From a virus: DNA of 22,500 bases. Below the pieces are notes generated by a model that worked only from the letters and a program-made list of their open reading frames with translations, ran no database searches and was not told where the DNA came from. The stretch lies in the IMG/VR virus record IMGVR_UViG_3300032516_000217, positions 1 to 22,500 of that record; one strand, 5' to 3'. Made by a program: the position numbers and the translations under genes. Positions 352 through 19,571 of this stretch are shown one piece after another. Positions within the stretch are counted from its first letter, which is position 1. The number at the start of each line of letters is the position of its first letter.

Positions 352-2739
352 ATGTTGCTATTAGAACGTATTATTGGTGAAGCAAAGATACTGGAATCCG
401 ATCGGACGAAGCTGCCGGATGGTGTTCTCTGCAGGGTCAAAGAACCGGTTTGCAACGTCGACCAACTGAATGCGAACAAGCGAAAGTACGGTTGGGACGT
501 GTGGGAAAAGGTTATGGATAACCAAACCCTGACAGAACAGATGCAGAAACGTGCTCTGTTCGGTCACGCGGAACATCCCGCTACGTCTCAGTCGGATTTA
601 CAGTTGGTCTCCCATGCGATTCTTGAATGGGTGATCGATAAGCCCGGTAACACCGTTTATCAGGTGTTCGACGTGTTTGATACCCCCACCGGTCGTATCG
701 TTGACTGTCTACTCAGAGCCCAGTGTAAGGTTGGTGTGTCTACCAGGGCAGAGGGTGAGTTGACCGAAGAGGTTGATGAGAAGTCCAAACAAAAGTATCA
801 ACGGGTGATCGCAGATAAATATAAATACATCACCACTGACTTCACTGCCGATCCCTCGACGTTTGGTGCTATCCCTATCGAGGTCAAGCGAAACGTGGTT
901 ACTGAAATTAAAGCTGCTGCGAATTGCAGGAAGGCAACAGCTAACGATAAGAAATTCGCAGGAGTCATCTTGGAATCGATGCACTGTAAGGACAAGACTA
1001 AGTGTCAGCACTGTGGTTGTTGTGATGCTATTAAAGAGGCGACGGTATCAATCGTCGCGGATCCAAATCAAGGTCTGGTTAATGTTGGTGGTGATGTTGG
1101 TGCCGTCAATATCAATCCGACATCTACTAATATCAATCCTGGTGGTGCCGTTCAGATCACTGTTACCACTACTCCGCCCGTCCAACTGGCACAGCCTGTT
1201 GAACCCCCCGCGGAGGGTACTCCTGAGCAGTTGGGGGTTGATGATGAGGCTCATGAGAATCCAGAGAAAGAGACTGATGATGCCCCCGATGAAGACGAAG
1301 TTGAGGAGTCTAAGATCAACGAGGACACTAGCGGTCTTCTTGGTAAGATTGCGGCACTTCGGAAGGAAATTGACGCAATTAGGCTTGATGGATGGGAACA
1401 GACGAAGTTGGCTCGTAAGCTTGAGAAGGAAGGAAATAAGAAAGAATCAGTCGCCAAACATAAAGAGGCAGATAGGCTTAATAAGGAGTATAACAGGCTT
1501 CGTAAGGCAATGATAAAGGATCTCGTTAGTTCGTACGATATCAAGACCAACGAGTCGAAGGTTAACGAAGGAGTTAAGATTTGGACGGAGGAAGAATTCC
1601 AGGGAGATAAAAATTTCGACGAGTATAAGGTTCTCAACGCTGTTGTGTCCTTCGATATAGACTTAGATAGAAACAAAGAAAAGGTATCAAGTAAGATTGA
1701 GAGGTCTTTTGGTCCAGCCACTGACGCTACGGAAGGCGAGGATTTTTGGTTTGGGGTTATTGATGAAAAACCGTTTGCTATAGTGTCGTCCGAGGGTACG
1801 GTTGAATTAAGTGCGGTGGATGATGAGACCGTTGAGAAAGTCGCCCAGTACATGGACTTGGAACAACAGTGGGCACAAGAACCTAACACCAACGTACCAA
1901 ACGAGTCGAAGGTCAACGAAGCAAAGATGAAGCACTTTAAAGTGAAGATGGATTTGATATTTGGTGAGACCAGTGAATACGCCAGTATTGAAGCAGTTGA
2001 AAAACTGATTCGGGATAAATTCTCGCACGCTCTAAAGTCCGTGCACGTGTATGGTAGTGCTGCCGGTGTTGAAGAGTCTGCCAGTGCTATGCTTAAGGAA
2101 GCGACCCAGCTTAAGATTGATGCTGCGACCCTTCGGGCTGAGCGTGATCGTCTTGCTGAGGCTGTCAATGGAACATCCGACAAGGTTTTGCAACTGAAAA
2201 TAGCCACCACCAAGATTCACGAGATGCAGAAGTCTGAGAACGGTGAGGTTACTGCCCTGCGGACTAAATTGGAGGAAAAAGCCACTACTGCAGCCGACGC
2301 TACTAAGAAGCTGGTTGAGTCTACCGCTGCTATTACAACCCTTAACGAAAAGGTCAAGGAACTGACCGTGGGTAACGAGAAGACTCTCGAAGAGAACAAG
2401 CTAAAGATCGAAAGCGTAGAAAATGGGGCAAAGAAAGCTCTCGTAGAACAAGTGAATAAGGCCAAGACGGACGCGACACGTGCTGTGATTATAGAGTACG
2501 TGGGTCGTCAGTTGAAGGCTTTCAAATCGGTACATGATAACGTTCGGGCACTTCTCGAAAAATGCATGACGATTGCAGAGGTCGACGAGGTCCTCAACGA
2601 ATTCCGAGACTCCCAGCGACGGAGTGCACTTCATTCCAAGCCGCCCAAAGAGATCACGGTTCGCAAGGACGAATCAGGGACGAACAATGATGTAAGGAAA
2701 CGTGTGGGTATGGTATTTGAAGGTTTTGGAATGTCATAG
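352..2739 (+). CDS. Prohead maturation protease fused to coiled-coil scaffold (T4 gp21/gp22-like)
   Basis: Residues 1 to about 205 look like a T4 gp21-type prohead serine protease: FGHAEHP with candidate catalytic His75 (H72 nearby), LVSHAILEW, VGVSTRAEG with candidate nucleophile Ser130 (55 residues after His75), and a DPSTFGAIP segment. A short Cys-rich stretch follows (about 210-225, five Cys), then a Pro/Thr/acidic linker. Three ESK[IV]NE motifs (residues 319-324, 401-406, 518-523) separate segments with no recognised fold. About residues 570-715 are a long Ala/Glu/Lys coiled coil, followed by a basic C-terminal region ending VFEGFGMS, as in phage scaffold proteins. The start has AAGGAG 8 bases upstream. 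In T4 the protease (gp21) and scaffold (gp22) are separate genes, each less than half this length; the fusion is reminiscent of the herpesvirus protease-scaffold. It sits directly before the capsid gene, as expected. The protease call is firm, scaffold role is inferred. Confidence 0.85.
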   Translation: MLLLERIIGEAKILESDRTKLPDGVLCRVKEPVCNVDQLNANKRKYGWDVWEKVMDNQTLTEQMQKRALFGHAEHPATSQSDLQLVSHAILEWVIDKPGNTVYQVFDVFDTPTGRIVDCLLRAQCKVGVSTRAEGELTEEVDEKSKQKYQRVIADKYKYITTDFTADPSTFGAIPIEVKRNVVTEIKAAANCRKATANDKKFAGVILESMHCKDKTKCQHCGCCDAIKEATVSIVADPNQGLVNVGGDVGAVNINPTSTNINPGGAVQITVTTTPPVQLAQPVEPPAEGTPEQLGVDDEAHENPEKETDDAPDEDEVEESKINEDTSGLLGKIAALRKEIDAIRLDGWEQTKLARKLEKEGNKKESVAKHKEADRLNKEYNRLRKAMIKDLVSSYDIKTNESKVNEGVKIWTEEEFQGDKNFDEYKVLNAVVSFDIDLDRNKEKVSSKIERSFGPATDATEGEDFWFGVIDEKPFAIVSSEGTVELSAVDDETVEKVAQYMDLEQQWAQEPNTNVPNESKVNEAKMKHFKVKMDLIFGETSEYASIEAVEKLIRDKFSHALKSVHVYGSAAGVEESASAMLKEATQLKIDAATLRAERDRLAEAVNGTSDKVLQLKIATTKIHEMQKSENGEVTALRTKLEEKATTAADATKKLVESTAAITTLNEKVKELTVGNEKTLEENKLKIESVENGAKKALVEQVNKAKTDATRAVIIEYVGRQLKAFKSVHDNVRALLEKCMTIAEVDEVLNEFRDSQRRSALHSKPPKEITVRKDESGTNNDVRKRVGMVFEGFGMS

Positions 2740-2749
2740 GAGGAAGATC

Positions 2750-4273
2750 ATGGATCTTCACGAAGCAATTCGGCAGGAGATGCTCCTGCTTGAGCAAAGA
2801 CGTGACTCTCTTTGTGAGAAGCCGGCCATTAAGCCGTATCTCGAAGAGGTCAGTTCGTACATTCAAAAGACCCAGAACCGTGAAATGACGGTTATGGAGA
2901 AGCGAAACATCGCCCAGTGCCTCGATAACGCCATTATGGAAGGCGGCATTCGTCAGGGACAGCGATTGTTCGAGAACACGACCACGGAAGACCACATTAG
3001 TTTCCTGGGCATTCAGCTGCCCGTGATTAGTGCGTTGCTTCCGTCACTGACCCTGAACGACGTTGCCACAGTGCAAGCGCTTGATCGGCGTATCGGTGCG
3101 GTATTCTTCATGGACTTCCTTTCCGGGTCCGCGAAGGGTGAGGTTGGACTTGGTGAGACGCTGTTCAGCTCGAAGAGCGGTCCAAACGCCAAGGGTGGTG
3201 CCCGTCGGTACGCGATGGCTGCTGCGGAGCGTGAGGAAGTTGGTTACGGCGATACGACGTTCACGTCCGTGACTGGAATCAACCCAGGTTTGATTCTGCG
3301 TGATAACATCGTCGTTGAAGCTACGGATAGCTATGGTAACGTGTGGGAGATCGGTGTTTGCTCCTCGGCTGGTGTGATTACCACGAGCCCGAACGCTGGT
3401 TCCGGCGTTACCTGCGTTGGTTCCATCGCCACGTCTGGTGTGTATACCATCGCGGTCGGTGGTCTGCTTGACAGCACGACCAAGGTTACGATTACGTACT
3501 ACTATCAGTACGATTTGCCCGTTGACAATCAGGGTAACAAGACGGGCGTTCCTGAGGTCGACCTGACGGTCACCCAGGAAACGATCACCGCGGTTGACTT
3601 CCCGATTCGGTCGAAGTACAGCATCGGTGCCCAGATTGATCTGCAGAAGGCACACGGCTTGAGCCTTGAGGACGAGCTTGTGAAGGTGCTCGGTGGCGCT
3701 GTGAAGTGGGCCATCGATCAGAGAGGTTTGGACATGATGATCGCCGCATCCACGGCGACCGGCGCTGCTACTCAGTGCACCACGTGGGATGCTCACATCC
3801 ACAGCGGCCAAGCCTGGCTGTGGCATAAGTACGAGTTCCTGGATCGTCTTAACGAAGGTAGCAACAACATCTTCGATAAGACCAAGCGTGGTGTTGCTAA
3901 TTTCATGATTTGCGGCAACAATGTTGCCCGAGTTGTGAGGCAGCTTACACAAGGTGGGGATTTCAAGGCTTCCGCCGCTCTTGGCAAGCAGATTCCCACA
4001 GGTCCGCTGAATATCGGTAACGTGTCGAGCGTCAATAACATGGTTGTGATTCAGAACCCGTTCATGGATTCGAACACGTACACGCTCGGCTTTAAGGGTG
4101 ACAGCTACCTGTACGCAAGCTTCATCTATGCTCCGTACATCCCGCTGTTCGCGACCCCGACGCTGATCACCTCCGACCTGATCGCTCAGAAGGGCTTCCT
4201 TTCGAGCGCTGGGTTCAAAGTGATCAACCCTGGTCTGTTCTGTGCTGGTGGAATTTCCAACCTCGGAGTCTAA
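2750..4273 (+). CDS. Major capsid protein (T4 gp23-like)
   Basis: A 507-residue protein close in length to T4 gp23 (521). ATG 2750 is chosen because TAGGAGGA lies just upstream and overlaps the previous stop; the frame extends further upstream but without a ribosome site. Features typical of the family are a helical N-terminal region (1-75), a core entry around 84-120 with VATVQALDRRIGAVFFMDF, a Gly/Val/Thr-rich inserted beta region (about 180-280), the segment around 300-330 with KYSIGAQIDLQKAHGL, and a C-terminal P-domain-like stretch with GFKGDSYLYAS and YAPYIPL. IME at residues 62-64 followed by GG fits a gp21-type maturation cleavage and is almost exactly where T4 gp23 is cut (after residue 65). 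Codon use is more GC-rich than in neighbouring accessory genes, as is common for very highly expressed capsid genes. Confidence 0.9.
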   Translation: MDLHEAIRQEMLLLEQRRDSLCEKPAIKPYLEEVSSYIQKTQNREMTVMEKRNIAQCLDNAIMEGGIRQGQRLFENTTTEDHISFLGIQLPVISALLPSLTLNDVATVQALDRRIGAVFFMDFLSGSAKGEVGLGETLFSSKSGPNAKGGARRYAMAAAEREEVGYGDTTFTSVTGINPGLILRDNIVVEATDSYGNVWEIGVCSSAGVITTSPNAGSGVTCVGSIATSGVYTIAVGGLLDSTTKVTITYYYQYDLPVDNQGNKTGVPEVDLTVTQETITAVDFPIRSKYSIGAQIDLQKAHGLSLEDELVKVLGGAVKWAIDQRGLDMMIAASTATGAATQCTTWDAHIHSGQAWLWHKYEFLDRLNEGSNNIFDKTKRGVANFMICGNNVARVVRQLTQGGDFKASAALGKQIPTGPLNIGNVSSVNNMVVIQNPFMDSNTYTLGFKGDSYLYASFIYAPYIPLFATPTLITSDLIAQKGFLSSAGFKVINPGLFCAGGISNLGV

Positions 4274-4651: not shown

Positions 4652-4657
4652 TTGGGT

Positions 4658-5590
4658 ATGGAAACCAAAATTTGTACAAAATGTGGCAATGAAAAACCGG
4701 CAACGGAAGAGAACTTCTACAAACATAAAAATGGTTTACATGGATTGGCATCGTGGTGTAAAGAATGCTTCCAGTTGTACCGGAATGATCATGCTGATGA
4801 TAGGAATAGAAAATCCTTGGGTCGAAAGCTTCTCGTTCTTTCCAATTATGGTGGTTCATGTTCCGTTTGTGGTATCACCGACCCGGCCTTCTTAACTATT
4901 GACCATATCAACAATGACGGTTCCGACCAAAAGTTTTCCGATCCAAGTTCTCGACATTTATATGATTGGTTGATTCGCAATAATTTCCCGCAAGGTTTCC
5001 AAGCTCTATGCTGGAACCATAATCACCTGAAGTTTTTTGAGAATAGGCGATTAAGGAATAATAGGTCTGCTGAAAAATATGTTAGATCGAATGATAAAAT
5101 CAAGTGTTTCGTCATTGGCCATTATGGTGTCCAGTGTGTCTGCTGTGGTGAGACTAATATTAATATTCTAACCATTGATCATATTAATGGTCATGGAAAT
5201 AAACACAGAATTCAGACCGGTTGTGGAACTGGTGTTAAGTTTTATCGTTGGTTACGTGATAATAATTTTCCATCAGAATTCAGAGTTTTGTGTTGTAATT
5301 GTAATGATGGAAGACGTGTAAACGGCGGTGTTTGTCCTCATGAATTAAGGAGATCATATGGCAAGAGACTACACCAAGTATCTGACTTGGTTACGTCAAG
5401 AGTTCCGTCCATTAACTCTGGCTACCCCAGAGGGTACCCTCAAGCAAATCGTGGAGAACAGCATAAGGTACTGGAACACAAACAGTGCCTACAAGTTGGG
5501 CACAATGGTCAATTATGCTGCTCTAACCAAGAGGGTTCAACTAAATGCCCAGTTCAAAACGGTCGTGGATTAAATGATGGTCCACGTTAA
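4658..5590 (+). CDS. Free-standing double-HNH homing endonuclease
   Basis: The chain opens with a zinc-binding pair of CxxC units (Cys6/9 and Cys34/37), a common start in phage HNH nucleases, then carries two tandem copies of the same HNH-like module. Module 1 (about residues 60-125) has CSVCG, LTIDHIN (Asp82-His83) and an LCWNHN end; module 2 (about 155-228) has CVCCG, LTIDHIN (Asp174-His175) and LCCNCN. In this family the DH pair and the final Asn supply the metal-dependent nuclease site. The natural end is probably near NGGVCPH (226-228): the remnant at 18890-19063 stops a few residues after the same motif. Here no stop follows, and the last 80 or so residues are an out-of-frame reading of exon 1 of the next gene, ending 20 bases inside intron 1. 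GAGGAG at 4636-4641 is 10 bases before an in-frame TTG at 4652, an alternative start. The AT-rich composition suggests transfer. Confidence 0.85.
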   Translation: METKICTKCGNEKPATEENFYKHKNGLHGLASWCKECFQLYRNDHADDRNRKSLGRKLLVLSNYGGSCSVCGITDPAFLTIDHINNDGSDQKFSDPSSRHLYDWLIRNNFPQGFQALCWNHNHLKFFENRRLRNNRSAEKYVRSNDKIKCFVIGHYGVQCVCCGETNINILTIDHINGHGNKHRIQTGCGTGVKFYRWLRDNNFPSEFRVLCCNCNDGRRVNGGVCPHELRRSYGKRLHQVSDLVTSRVPSINSGYPRGYPQANRGEQHKVLEHKQCLQVGHNGQLCCSNQEGSTKCPVQNGRGLNDGPR

Positions 5591-6820
5591 AGCCGCTCAA
5601 TTCGGTGAACTTCTTATAAATATAAGAAAATACCGAGCCAGACTCCGATTTTTCGGCAGCAATGGTGTAACGACTACGCCCCGTAAAGTGATTTACGGGA
5701 CTACGGCGGCCGACCAAATGGTCGATGGTATAGTCTGAACCGTGCAGTGATGTACGGAGATGAGCCGAAAGACTCGTCCGCCCACCATATGGTGGGTCAT
5801 GAAAGTAACAGTTTGATCTACCCTGATAAAACGACCACGTGGATTAGTAATATGGTTCACGATAAAGCCGCTCAATTCGGTGAACTTCTTAGAACGCTAA
5901 GAAAATACCGAGCCAGATTGTTGAGAAAAATCAACAACAATGGTGTAACGACTACGTTTCTTGGGGCGACCCAAGAGGCTACGGCGGCCGACCAAACGGT
6001 CGATGGTATAGTCTGGACTGCACGGCGACGTGCAGAGGTGAGTCGAAAGTCTCGCCCGCCCATTATGGTAATGGGTCATAAAGTAACAGACAGCTGGAAC
6101 GACCATCAATGTGGTGGCTTTGCCGGGCGACCGGCATCGAAGAATTCCGTAAACTGCGGGAACATCCGAGGATCCCAAACTACTCGCCGTACGGCAGTAA
6201 CAATGTTTGGGTGCGGACAATCCGCAACCAAGCCCTTCGCGGCCACCGCGTGAGGGAAGGCTCAACGAGCATAATCGGAACGTCTCACTGAGACGGTGGT
6301 GTGCTCTGAACCATACAGCGATGTATGGAGTTCGGCAGAAATGACCGAACCGCCAGAAACGACTGGTGGTAACAGATTGCCATTGTGGACCCTTATGGGC
6401 ATTTCGGTGATGGACAACGTAACCGGTGACCTGATCATGATGTCGGAAGCCTTCCGTAACTATCGGGTTTATGTTGGGGTAGACTTCCAATGGCAGTTTG
6501 ATAAGTCAGACGTGCCCGGTGTTGGTGGGTATCTTTATTGTATCAACGTACCGTCCGGCACCCAGAAGCTATTCGTAATGGGGACAAAGAGGATCCTTGA
6601 GGAAGAGGACGTAAAGGTTGAGCAGGTCCTCGACTGGCTTTATCGATATAGTAAGGCTCAGTTGAAGCAGATTGAGGGTAACACCCTTCGCAAGAGCGCC
6701 ATCATCAACGTCGCTAACGACGGTCAAGCACTCGTGGATGAGGGCAAGGAAGAAATGAAAGACCTGCAAGATCGGTTGTCAAAAGATAGTAGATGGGTGC
6801 TGCTCGCGAAACGATGTTAG
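5358..6820 (+). CDS. Virion structural protein, split by three group I introns (231 aa after splicing)
   Basis: Exons are 5358-5570, 5816-5844, 6094-6106 and 6380-6820. AAGGAG at 5347-5352 sets the ATG start. Unspliced, translation stops at TAA immediately after codon 71 (GAT). Joined, the reading frame runs without a break: exon 1 ends TVVD in phase 0, exon 2 gives IYPDKTTTW plus AT, exon 3 supplies C to complete Ile and then WNDH, and exon 4 opens PLWTLMGISV. The product is a soluble alpha/beta protein with a helical C-terminus (LKQIEGNTLR, DGQALVDEGKEEM) of a kind I associate with unnamed head-neck structural proteins of T4-like and jumbo phages. I cannot assign a precise role. Group I introns usually invade conserved parts of essential genes, which fits. 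The exon borders are inferred from P1 pairing, frame and a constant 3' end pattern (TAACAGNNNG in all three introns), not from RNA data. Confidence 0.8.
5571..5815 (+). ncRNA. Group I intron 1 (IA-like, 245 nt)
   Basis: P1: 5' exon CGTGGAT (5564-5570) pairs with GTCCACG (5580-5586), with the expected U.G at the splice site. P3: GCCGCT 5592-5597 with GGCGGC 5705-5710. P4: TTCGGT 5601-5606 with ACCGAG 5632-5637. P5: TTCTTA 5611-5616 with TAAGAA 5623-5628. P6a: CCGA with TCGG (5645-5656). P7: GACTA 5672-5676 with TAGTC 5731-5735. An 8-bp hairpin with GTGA loop (5680-5699) lies between P7 and P3', as in subgroup IA. P8: CGACC/GGTCG (5711-5724). P9: 5740-5757 with GTGA loop, followed by two more hairpins including CCCACCATATGGTGGG. 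The terminal G is placed at 5815. No ORF is inside, so it would need a nuclease supplied in trans to home. Confidence 0.9.
5845..6093 (+). ncRNA. Group I intron 2 (IA-like, 249 nt), paralogue of intron 1
   Basis: The core is nearly identical to intron 1 (AAAGCCGCTCAATTCGGTGA, AATACCGAGCC, GTGTAACGACTACG, CGATGGTATAGTCTG) while the peripheral stems differ in sequence but keep pairing: P5 TTCTTAG/CTAAGAA, P6 TTGTTGA/TCAACAA, the P7-P3' hairpin TCTTGGG/CCCAAGA with GCGA loop, P9 CTGCACG/CGTGCAG with GCGA loop, P9.1 GGTGAG/CTCGCC, and CCCATTA/TAATGGG. P1 pairs exon CGTGGAT (5838-5844) with GTTCACG (5855-5861). The 3' end fits G6093 (TAACAGACAG). The intron is 83 codons long and has no stop in the exon frame. 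Confidence 0.9.
6107..6379 (+). ncRNA. Group I intron 3 (273 nt), different lineage from introns 1 and 2
   Basis: P1: exon ACCAT (6102-6106) with GTGGT (6111-6115), terminal U.G. P2: GCCGG/CCGGC (6122-6135) with GCGA loop. P3: TTCCG 6145-6149 with CGGAA 6276-6280. P4 TGCGG with CCGCA, and P5 CCCAAAC with GTTTGGG, enclosing CCGTACGG. P6a CGCGG/CCGCG. P7: GAGCA 6267-6271 with TGCTC 6302-6306. P8: GTCTC/GAGAC (6282-6294). P9: CCATACA/TGTATGG with GCGA loop (6311-6328), then TTCGG/CCGAA and CCGCC/GGTGG hairpins. The Q-like element AATCCGCAACCAAGCCC is close to that of T4-type introns. The 3' end TAACAGATTG (G6379) matches the pattern of introns 1 and 2. An in-frame stop (TGA 6251-6253) blocks ribosomes in the P6 region. 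Confidence 0.87.
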
Positions 6821-7204: not shown

Positions 7205-8623
7205 ATGGAAGTCCAGTTCAACGAGCTGATTGAGGCCACCCTTTCTGACATTCACCGAAAACATCGATCCGTGAAGATGCTGTTTCCCACGTTCGACGAT
7301 CGGGTAAAGAACGTTCAACTCATGGGTGGTATTCGTCTTAAAGAGGTAGACGACGATAACTGGCACTTCTCAGTACACTCTGGCACCAAGAAGGATGTGT
7401 GGTACGACTGCACACTTCATTTCAAGAACATTCAAGAAGTCCTCGAACACTATGTAAAAGATCGTCGTCTGTGGGTAGAAGATCGATCAAGGGTGGATCT
7501 TAAGAAGCTTGCTGCGATATTTGTCGAGAAGGTTGACGTCCAAGTGTTCTGCTCATGCCCTGCATTTCTTTATTTTGGCCCCGCCTATATTCTTGGTCGG
7601 CCCAAGTACGACGCCAAATACACGGACCCAGAGCATCGGCCACCGAACAAGCGAAATCCAAAGCAATATGGGGCTACATGCAAGCATTTCACGAACGTCT
7701 TGAAGGCCCTGCCGTTTTATACCGGCACCATCGCGAAGTGGTTGAGGGACTTCTATGCTAGAGACATCGCTGGTTACGAAAAGGAAGCGATGCGGGAATT
7801 TGGCTGGCTCCGTAAGGCAGCCACCGTTCTTGGCAAGAAGAAGGCAAGGGTTGGGAAAAAGCCGGTGAAGGGTCCGGAGAAGAAACCGGAGCCAACTAAG
7901 ACGGAAGCAGAGGAAGAGGGTCAGACGCAACCGGAGACAGAGGGAAATACACCCCCTGAAACACAGGAGAATGAGCGAATCACCGAGTCAAAAGACGAGC
8001 AGTACAAATGGTTCATCAACAGAACCAACAAGCACGTCAGTCTGGTGAAAAATGCTGCCAAGAAGATTGTTGGTGCTTATCCTGAATTTGAAGATCTTCT
8101 AAAACAGGTGGAGGTTCACGACGCTTCAAAATTAGAAGAGCCGGAGAAAACGCCGTACGTATCAATTACATGGAGACACAAATTAGAAAACGAACGTGGG
8201 GAATTTGACCCCATAAATAATAAGGGATATCAAACCCCCGGTTTGTTGGCGAAGGAAGACGAGAATACTGCCACTTTGCATCATATCACAACCAATTCTC
8301 ATCATCCTGAGTACCATTTGAAGGATAAACAGGACGCGAACATAAACAGTAAAGATCGTGACAAATCAAATAGCTGTGTCGATGCTACAGCTATGCCTGA
8401 TCTTGATATTGCTGAAATGGTGGCAGATTGGCAGGCAATGTCAGAGGAACTGGGAAAAAATACTTCAAGGCAATGGTTCAATAAACAGAAGGACGTTAGG
8501 TGGCACTTCTCAGCCAAACAGGAACAGTTAATCGACGGACTGTTGAGGGTCTTCGAGGCTGTGGTTGATGAAAGTACTTCGATTCGTCTTACCAGCCGTC
8601 TGTTGGAGAAATACAGACTGTGA
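7205..8623 (+). CDS. SWIM-like zinc motif plus DUF5662-like (HD-type) protein, 472 aa
   Basis: The N-terminal half (1-200) contains Cys116-Ser-Cys118 and Cys159-Lys-His161, the CxC...CxH pattern of SWIM zinc fingers with an unusually long spacer. A Lys/Pro then Glu/Thr-rich linker covers about 205-260. The C-terminal half resembles DUF5662: His277 (NKHVSLV), His305-Asp306 (VHDASK), His366-His367 (NSHHPEY) and Asp408 (ADWQAM), a set of conserved His/Asp that looks like an HD-type metal site. No enzyme activity is established for that family. The chain ends in SRLLEKYRL, a tail shared with the proteins ending at 19995 and 20403. GAGGG at 7188-7192 is the only ribosome site near the ATG. The product could be a packaged or virion-associated protein. 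Confidence 0.75.
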   Translation: MEVQFNELIEATLSDIHRKHRSVKMLFPTFDDRVKNVQLMGGIRLKEVDDDNWHFSVHSGTKKDVWYDCTLHFKNIQEVLEHYVKDRRLWVEDRSRVDLKKLAAIFVEKVDVQVFCSCPAFLYFGPAYILGRPKYDAKYTDPEHRPPNKRNPKQYGATCKHFTNVLKALPFYTGTIAKWLRDFYARDIAGYEKEAMREFGWLRKAATVLGKKKARVGKKPVKGPEKKPEPTKTEAEEEGQTQPETEGNTPPETQENERITESKDEQYKWFINRTNKHVSLVKNAAKKIVGAYPEFEDLLKQVEVHDASKLEEPEKTPYVSITWRHKLENERGEFDPINNKGYQTPGLLAKEDENTATLHHITTNSHHPEYHLKDKQDANINSKDRDKSNSCVDATAMPDLDIAEMVADWQAMSEELGKNTSRQWFNKQKDVRWHFSAKQEQLIDGLLRVFEAVVDESTSIRLTSRLLEKYRL

Positions 8624-12575: not shown

Positions 12576-12994
12576 TGATGCGTGACTTGCTTGGTGTCTT
12601 GTTGGAGGGCCCAGAACCAGACTGGACGAAGAAACCAGCCGTGTTCCCGTCCACTCAACATACCGGTCGTGGCAACCGTACACAATCGGCCGTAAATTGG
12701 CCAAAAATTGTTCAATCAATGGTTTCAGGTCGACTTGAGAAGATTTACAAGGCGTGGTCTGAGGCAGACAAAAGTGAGATTACCAAGTACGTTTCGTGGG
12801 ACTGTGTCTCAAAGCAGACGGGCATACCAGTCGAAGAAATCGCGGCCGAAGTCAAATACCTACAGAAGGAGCACCCAGATCAGGTAGGTTTGACCGTTGA
12901 TAGGATGGGCAATCTGACGTACTTTAAGTTCAGGGGAAGACCAGTGATTACACCGGTGACGCGTGTTGTAGACCCAGGGTATAAAAGTGATTAG
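12575..12994 (+). CDS. Unknown protein, possible winged-helix fold (139 aa)
   Basis: It overlaps the previous gene by one base (TGATG). A short leader MMRDLLGVLLEGPE opens the chain. Residues about 60-118 read as helix-helix-wing: ITKYVSWDCVSKQTGIPVEEIAAEVKY then a strand pair VGLTVDRMGNLTYFKF, resembling a winged helix by eye. No named family is recognised. It forms part of the tightly coupled cluster 7205-14833. Confidence 0.6.
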   Translation: MMRDLLGVLLEGPEPDWTKKPAVFPSTQHTGRGNRTQSAVNWPKIVQSMVSGRLEKIYKAWSEADKSEITKYVSWDCVSKQTGIPVEEIAAEVKYLQKEHPDQVGLTVDRMGNLTYFKFRGRPVITPVTRVVDPGYKSD

Positions 12995-18889: not shown

Positions 18890-19063
18890 TTGCACGGCTG
18901 TGGGGCAAGAATAAGAATGGAAACCGGTTTTGGTACGAATTTGTACCGTTGGCTTCGTAATTGCGATTTTCTACCCGGATTTCAGGTGCTGTGTTTTAAT
19001 TGTAACTGTGGTAAGCAAGCAAACGGCGGATTCTGTCCGCATAAAGGGGTGTGCCATGAGTAG
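18890..19063 (+). pseudogene. Remnant of an HNH endonuclease (C-terminal module only)
   Basis: In the same frame as the sheath gene, after two stops, 57 codons read LHGCG..., GFGTNLYRWLRN, GFQVLCFNCN and NGGFCPHKG before TAG. This matches the end of the second module of the HNH gene at 4658 (GCGTGVKFYRWLRD, FRVLCCNCN, NGGVCPH). The zinc finger, first module and the catalytic DHIN element are gone, so it cannot be active. Its end still provides the AAAGGGG ribosome site for the tube gene. Confidence 0.85.
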
Positions 19064-19571
19064 AATGGGAGCAGACAATCTTGGAGCCAACCTTACAAAC
19101 CTAGCCAGAAAATACCTATTCGAGGTTATGTTCGCGAATCCCATTGGTGGTGGAGACGCTGAAGCTTTAATGCTTCGTGCCCAGTCAACCGCCATTCCGG
19201 GTAGTTCGTTCGGTGCCATCTTGATCCCGTTCAAGCAGAGTCCCGGCATTAAGTTCCCCGGCAAGTTGACGATGCCACACACGTGGACCACAACCTTTGT
19301 AGAGGGCACCGACAAGAAGGTATTCGATGCTATTTACGCATGGAAGCAACTTGTCGTTCACGACCGGTTGAACGTTGGTGGACCCGACATCATCATCAAG
19401 TCAGATATTTATCTGAATCTTCTTAGTCAGGCCGGTGTCACAACCAGTCGATTTAAGCTCGTTGGCTGTTATCCTGAGTTGATGGATGACACCCCGTTGA
19501 GCTACGATGAAGAGGCTGGTTTGATGTACACAGTGACGTTCTCATATGATCGATGGGAACGTATTGCTTAA
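19056..19571 (+). CDS. Tail tube protein (T4 gp19-like), 171 aa
   Basis: ATG 19056 is chosen over in-frame upstream starts because AAAGGGG lies at 19043-19049 and the upstream part is HNH remnant read out of frame. The length matches T4 gp19 (163). ARKYLFEVMFANP, the segment AQSTAIPGSSFGAILIPF, then GKLTMPHTWTTTFVEGTD, and RFKLVGCYPELMDDTPLSYD near the end follow the tube-protein order. The location after the sheath is as expected. It forms the inner hexameric tube through which DNA passes. Confidence 0.9.
   Translation: MSRMGADNLGANLTNLARKYLFEVMFANPIGGGDAEALMLRAQSTAIPGSSFGAILIPFKQSPGIKFPGKLTMPHTWTTTFVEGTDKKVFDAIYAWKQLVVHDRLNVGGPDIIIKSDIYLNLLSQAGVTTSRFKLVGCYPELMDDTPLSYDEEAGLMYTVTFSYDRWERIA

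Follow-up and report, generated by a model that had tools for sequence, protein, structure and literature searches.

Split phage genes and the neck gene of the window

The closest known case to the locus described here is orf142 of the Staphylococcus phage Twort. As cited in PMC10136302 and PMC11878797, Landthaler and Shub (1999) described in this tail tube gene three group I introns, of which introns 2 and 3 are highly similar, together with exon skipping; the exon separating these two introns measures 23 nt (PMC10136302). Two tandem Tetrahymena introns offer a further analogy for exon skipping (PMC10136302), which has also been reported for SIOphi and other Bastillevirinae, where genes contain two or three introns (PMC11878797). 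Fungal rDNA group I introns have been proposed to spread by reverse splicing (PMC1299323). The psbA intron of cyanophage S-PM2 and the free-standing endonuclease F-CphI constitute a case of collaborative homing (PMC6083498).

The window, i.e. the whole stretch of 22,500 bases analysed here, is a fragment of a T4-like phage in which a prohead protease gene precedes a T4-type gp23 capsid gene (2702-4273). A gene located downstream of the latter gives a profile match to T4 gp13 (E 0.003), and the predicted fold of its protein matches the T4 neck (E 1e-6) with a moderate model confidence (pLDDT 76). According to this profile match and this fold, the product of the interrupted gene is a T4 gp13-like neck protein. 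Three group I introns devoid of ORFs, named I1, I2 and I3, divide its coding sequence into four exons of 213, 29, 13 and 441 nt (Table 1), the exact boundaries being set by alignment with the uninterrupted genes of two related loci, L002 and L124. The predicted splicing produces a coding sequence of 696 nt, which is the length of the L002 gene, restores the reading frame of the host gene and yields a protein with 86% amino acid identity to that of L002 over its whole length. Named phages gave no match, either in a DNA search with the intron region or in a TBLASTN search with exon 4. Elsewhere in the window, the protein encoded at 7205-8623 has a C-terminal part corresponding to DUF5662 (Pfam, E 3e-25). 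The first codons of the tail tube gene (18930-19571) correspond over 72 nt (74%) to the 3' part of a region of L002 with an HNH gene (12891-12962), and the start of this gene is a possible endonuclease remnant.

Table 1. Features of the split neck-protein gene and of the adjoining ORF (positions in the window).
Feature	Position	Strand	Remarks
Free-standing HNH/endonuclease-VII-like ORF	4652-5590	+	phrog_2255, E 2e-24; phrog_1035 (endonuclease VII), E 6e-13
Exon 1, gp13-like neck gene	5358-5570	+	71 codons, ending in GTC GTG GAT; aligned with L002/L124
Target word CGTGGAT, site 1	5564-5570	+	5' strand of P1; phase 0
Group I intron I1	5571-5815	+	245 nt; P1 guide GTCCACG at 5580-5586; first codon TAA, an in-frame stop
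Exon 2	5816-5844	+	29 nt, IYPDKTTTW + AT
Target word CGTGGAT, site 2	5838-5844	+	Phase 2; also present in the nearest intronless relatives
Group I intron I2, sister of I1	5845-6093	+	249 nt; P1 guide GTTCACG at 5855-5861; starts with an out-of-frame TAG
Exon 3	6094-6106	+	13 nt, C TGG AAC GAC CAT
Group I intron I3, other clade	6107-6379	+	273 nt; guide GTGGT at 6111-6115; P7-P3' hairpin absent by eye
Exon 4, gp13-like neck gene	6380-6820	+	441 nt; aligned with uninterrupted relatives
Third CGTGGAT, unoccupied, in exon 4	6733-6739	+	Same gene

As with Twort orf142, three group I introns interrupt a late gene for a virion protein in the window, and two of them are close sisters flanking a very short exon (23 nt in Twort, 29 nt here). 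In both cases the sisters have a common 5' target and guide, the target being CGTGGAT in the window and AGCAT in Twort, where introns 2 and 3 also share the guide GTGCC, as read here from the sequence. The two systems differ by the gene concerned (neck versus tail tube), by sequences that are not closely related and by the length of the shared target (7 nt in the window, 5 nt in Twort); splicing has been demonstrated in Twort, whereas it is predicted from the sequence in the window. Interruption of a single phage gene by several group I introns is shared with SIOphi and the other Bastillevirinae, but those introns reside in polymerase and terminase genes, mostly bear endonucleases and measure about 800 nt. 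The fungal introns likewise include related members at different sites with a common guide-pairing exon motif; they occupy, however, the multicopy rDNA of eukaryotes and not a single-copy phage protein gene with sites 29 nt apart. Finally, as in S-PM2 psbA, ORF-less introns lie beside a free-standing gene of the endonuclease VII type adjoining the host gene, but the window contains three introns and the S-PM2 arrangement leaves the second copy unexplained. The architecture is known in kind, and the new elements are a clue on the direction of copying and a compact test system.

Sister introns at a common target

All three introns score below the curated gathering cut-off of the Rfam Intron_gpI model (50 bits), and at this threshold no Rfam match was obtained anywhere in the window. 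The scores are 43.9 bits for I1 (E 4e-9), 47.4 bits for I2 (E 3e-10) and 25.7 bits for I3 (E 1e-3). I1 and I2 display a P3-P8 and P4-P6 core with P7, in which every core helix is paired, a P1 of 7 bp with a U.G at the 5' splice site, and a terminal guanosine. This P1 is present in the minimum-energy folds of both introns (z -6.7 for I1, z -7.8 for I2). As judged from these structural signatures, I1 and I2 are group I introns, and the introns of the window are presumably active in splicing. The P1 of I3 is limited to 5 bp (ACCAT/GTGGT), also with a U.G, and a covariance model built from I1 and I2, named R1, gives this intron 36.2 bits (E 7e-9). The P9 stretch of I3 resembles that of I1, a likeness possibly due to an exchange of 3' domains or to common ancestry.

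The preliminary description of this DNA had pointed out the nearly identical cores of I1 and I2 and their compensatory changes, and both proved real. The two introns are 80% identical in an end-to-end global alignment, with no difference at all in P3, P4, P6, P7 and P8. Eleven base pairs located in P5, P6a, the P7-P3' hairpin and P9 are altered on both sides (0/500 shuffles), and two-sided changes were also seen by eye in P9.2. I1 and I2 form a sister pair in a tree of 84 introns (support 100/97) as well as in a tree of 97 introns (99/95), where they share a long branch. No close relative of I1 or I2 came from exact-pattern scans, two in viral_contigs and one in genome_contigs; a closer kinship of I2 with an intron from another gene, considered beforehand as evidence against local copying, did not appear. 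The sequence comparison therefore supports well a copy relation between I1 and I2, whose divergence of about 20% means that the copying event is old. I3 belongs to a different clade in the tree, even if its exact place on a long branch is unsure, and was therefore probably acquired separately.

The word CGTGGAT was confirmed directly before both introns, in exon contexts which differ as announced: the match stops at 7 nt, exactly the length of P1, and no common sequence is found 5' or 3' of it. The 3' junctions are unlike as well (G/ATCTACC at site 1 versus G/CTGGAAC at site 2, the slash marking the junction). Both guides pair with all seven bases, one G.U replacing a G-C in I2. The motif AAAACG, also claimed as common to both sites, fared less well. 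It stems from Lys-Thr codons and lies out of register, its distance upstream of CGTGGAT being 2 nt at site 1 but 4 nt at site 2; it was for this reason rejected as part of the target. The match of I1 and I2 over 7 nt is not due to chance, because only 4 of 551 pairs of introns from different loci have identical targets of this length.

Eight relatives of the neck gene (L002, L124/L135, L134 and L136-L140) are uninterrupted. The proposed search for alleles containing only intron 1 or only intron 2 was thus unproductive among these eight relatives. At site 2, CGTGGAT is found in L002, L124 and L134 (codons ACG TGG AT-). Among the more distant relatives, L136, L138 and L140 have CATGGAT, and neither word is present in L137 and L139; an uninterrupted homologue lacking the second CGTGGAT, put forward at the outset as an objection, is therefore encountered only at this greater distance. 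With the relatives standing in for the ancestor, these sequences agree with a site 2 that matched the guide before insertion. At site 1, none of the relatives has CGTGGAT. The match there may be older in the lineage of the window, or may have been adjusted by synonymous change after insertion; the second possibility counts against the reverse-splicing reading.

The stop codons found at the intron borders provide a clue on the direction of copying. In the related loci L004-L122, a stop codon starts 22 of the 38 family introns with a resolved P1, for about 1.8 expected. Phase 0 was observed in 14 of the 15 among them that are preceded by a frame open for at least 60 codons, I1 being scored by its real exon, as the overlapping endonuclease ORF gives a longer, different frame. 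The initial stop is therefore in frame and translation ends at the intron border. I1 follows this rule (GAT/TAA). I2 has a TAG at the same place but in phase 2, with zero in-frame stops within its 249 nt (83 codons), so that translation of a message in which I2 is retained would continue across the intron into I3. The frame of exon 2 is open through I2 and exon 3 into I3 (5747-6253). The out-of-frame TAG of I2 is likely a relic of the in-frame stop found in most phase-0 family members. I2 therefore looks copied from a phase-0 intron like I1, which points to copying from site 1 to site 2.

Routes to the second copy

Reverse splicing, even if unproven, is the leading mechanism and the best single explanation of this pattern, with a probability of about 0.5. 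An I1-like intron would have been excised from a phase-0 site, where its own in-frame stop is supplied. In the message from which it came, the freed intron would have met, 29 nt further downstream, the pre-existing CGTGGAT; its guide would have paired with this word, and the intron RNA would have reverse-spliced into site 2. Recombination would then have brought a cDNA into the genome of the phage, where the copies would have diverged with compensatory changes. I3 would have arrived separately, and the whole cluster could spread later by homing driven by the adjoining endonuclease ORF.

Several predictions of reverse splicing are seen in the window, namely an exact insertion after the U at the guide match, independence from the reading frame and no sharing beyond P1; compared with the uninterrupted relatives, both insertions are exact to the base. 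Endonuclease sites are 14-40 bp long. The shared target ends at the length of P1 and therefore fits the guide rather than a site of this size. For the RNA route as such it says little, because any copy must match the guide in order to splice. The preliminary description had preferred reverse splicing to endonuclease homing. This preference is partly supported, by the sisterhood of I1 and I2, by the absence of the contrary findings named beforehand and by the inadequacy of homing, since copying from allele to allele cannot yield a second copy 29 nt away; for the presumed passage of the copy through RNA, with its steps of reverse transcription and recombination, no reverse transcriptase is known in this phage.

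Independent arrivals represent an unlikely alternative. Related introns with the same guide would have settled sites 1 and 2 in different phages and been united later by recombination or homing, the copying step having taken place elsewhere. I3, from another clade and only 13 nt away, indicates that this conserved segment collects introns independently. With at least 119 loci in viral contigs, the intron family is a large one, and collaborative homing could be powered by the adjoining endonuclease, on the model of F-CphI (PMC6083498). Such a history is nevertheless at odds with the long branch shared by the two sisters, with the exact-pattern scans devoid of any close relative and with the lack of a single-intron allele (0/8 relatives).

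The same ORF is central to a second alternative. It begins right behind the stop codon of the gene that precedes it, and its frame crosses exon 1 and stops inside I1. It is missing at this place in L002 and L124; in L002, a stop and a start codon overlap at the very point where the ORF was inserted. Two zinc-finger-type repeats are present in the product of the ORF. A break near site 2, produced for example by this endonuclease, could have been repaired from I1 through the 5' microhomology of 7 nt provided by CGTGGAT, selection keeping the product able to splice. T4-like phages recombine actively, and the endonuclease-VII-like ORF lies directly upstream in the window alone when compared with L002 and L124. 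This ectopic copying at the DNA level is nonetheless quite improbable, as the 3' junction is precise to the nucleotide although the 3' side offers no homology. By analogy with collaborative homing of the F-CphI type, in which a free-standing endonuclease gene likewise adjoins the intron-bearing gene, the ORF may carry the whole intron cluster between phages, and a spread of this kind is compatible with an RNA-based copying step. An assembly artefact or a segmental duplication of the region, suggested by two similar stretches 275 nt apart, is refuted by copies that differ by about 20% with compensatory changes, the duplication being rejected because no exon sequence occurs twice and, codon for codon, splicing gives the frame of the intronless gene.

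Recurrence of local copying and its meaning

A pattern based on the P4 region drew the viral loci of the intron family, in which the R1 model finds related introns, as it does for I3 and for introns 2 and 3 of Twort orf142. Sister introns at the same locus occur in four cases (the window, Twort, L114 and L056) versus 0.2 expected by label shuffling (2/10,000), numbers which are indicative because an intron pattern had served to collect the loci and the model used for the alignment was itself derived from I1 and I2. Local copying therefore recurs. The target of the L114 sisters is not fixed with certainty, no homologue of their gene having been found in named phages, and that of the L056 sisters is not certain either, their P1 being read by eye. 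A further same-locus pair, in L066, has lower support (89/93 in the tree of 97 introns) and unlike targets (TAAGCGT versus CTTCCGT); local copying need not, therefore, retain the guide. Related group I introns lying close together, two to four per cluster, were observed in L096 (800-1469), L114 (1-706), L066 (7570-10442), L055 (269-1687) and L087 (2580-4046). Some gaps between the cores of clustered viral introns are very short, and arrays seem common.

The independent parallel of Twort strengthens the pattern and lowers its novelty. The Twort copy probably also resulted from the spread of an intron to a second site recognized by its guide. It is tentatively proposed that group I introns of phages have repeatedly been duplicated inside a gene, through reverse splicing directed by the guide to matches nearby, and that arrays with micro-exons arise in this way; the window and the Twort pair would be two independent footprints of this process, and the relic stop of I2 would record its direction. 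Occasional exon skipping would also be expected in the neck gene, as in the known systems, because either guide fits either 5' splice site. Skipping exon 2 alone gives a frame-shifted product, whereas the frame is kept if exon 3 is lost along with exon 2 (42 nt in all).

Arrays of tiny introns with exons of 13-29 nt can escape both ordinary gene calling and the Rfam cut-off. The natural movement of group I introns through RNA is a long-standing question, for which the evidence has so far been mostly phylogenetic and derived from rDNA. With sister introns at two guide matches of 7 nt, a third match still empty in the same gene and a parallel in Twort, this locus constitutes a compact system for the study of reverse splicing and exon skipping.
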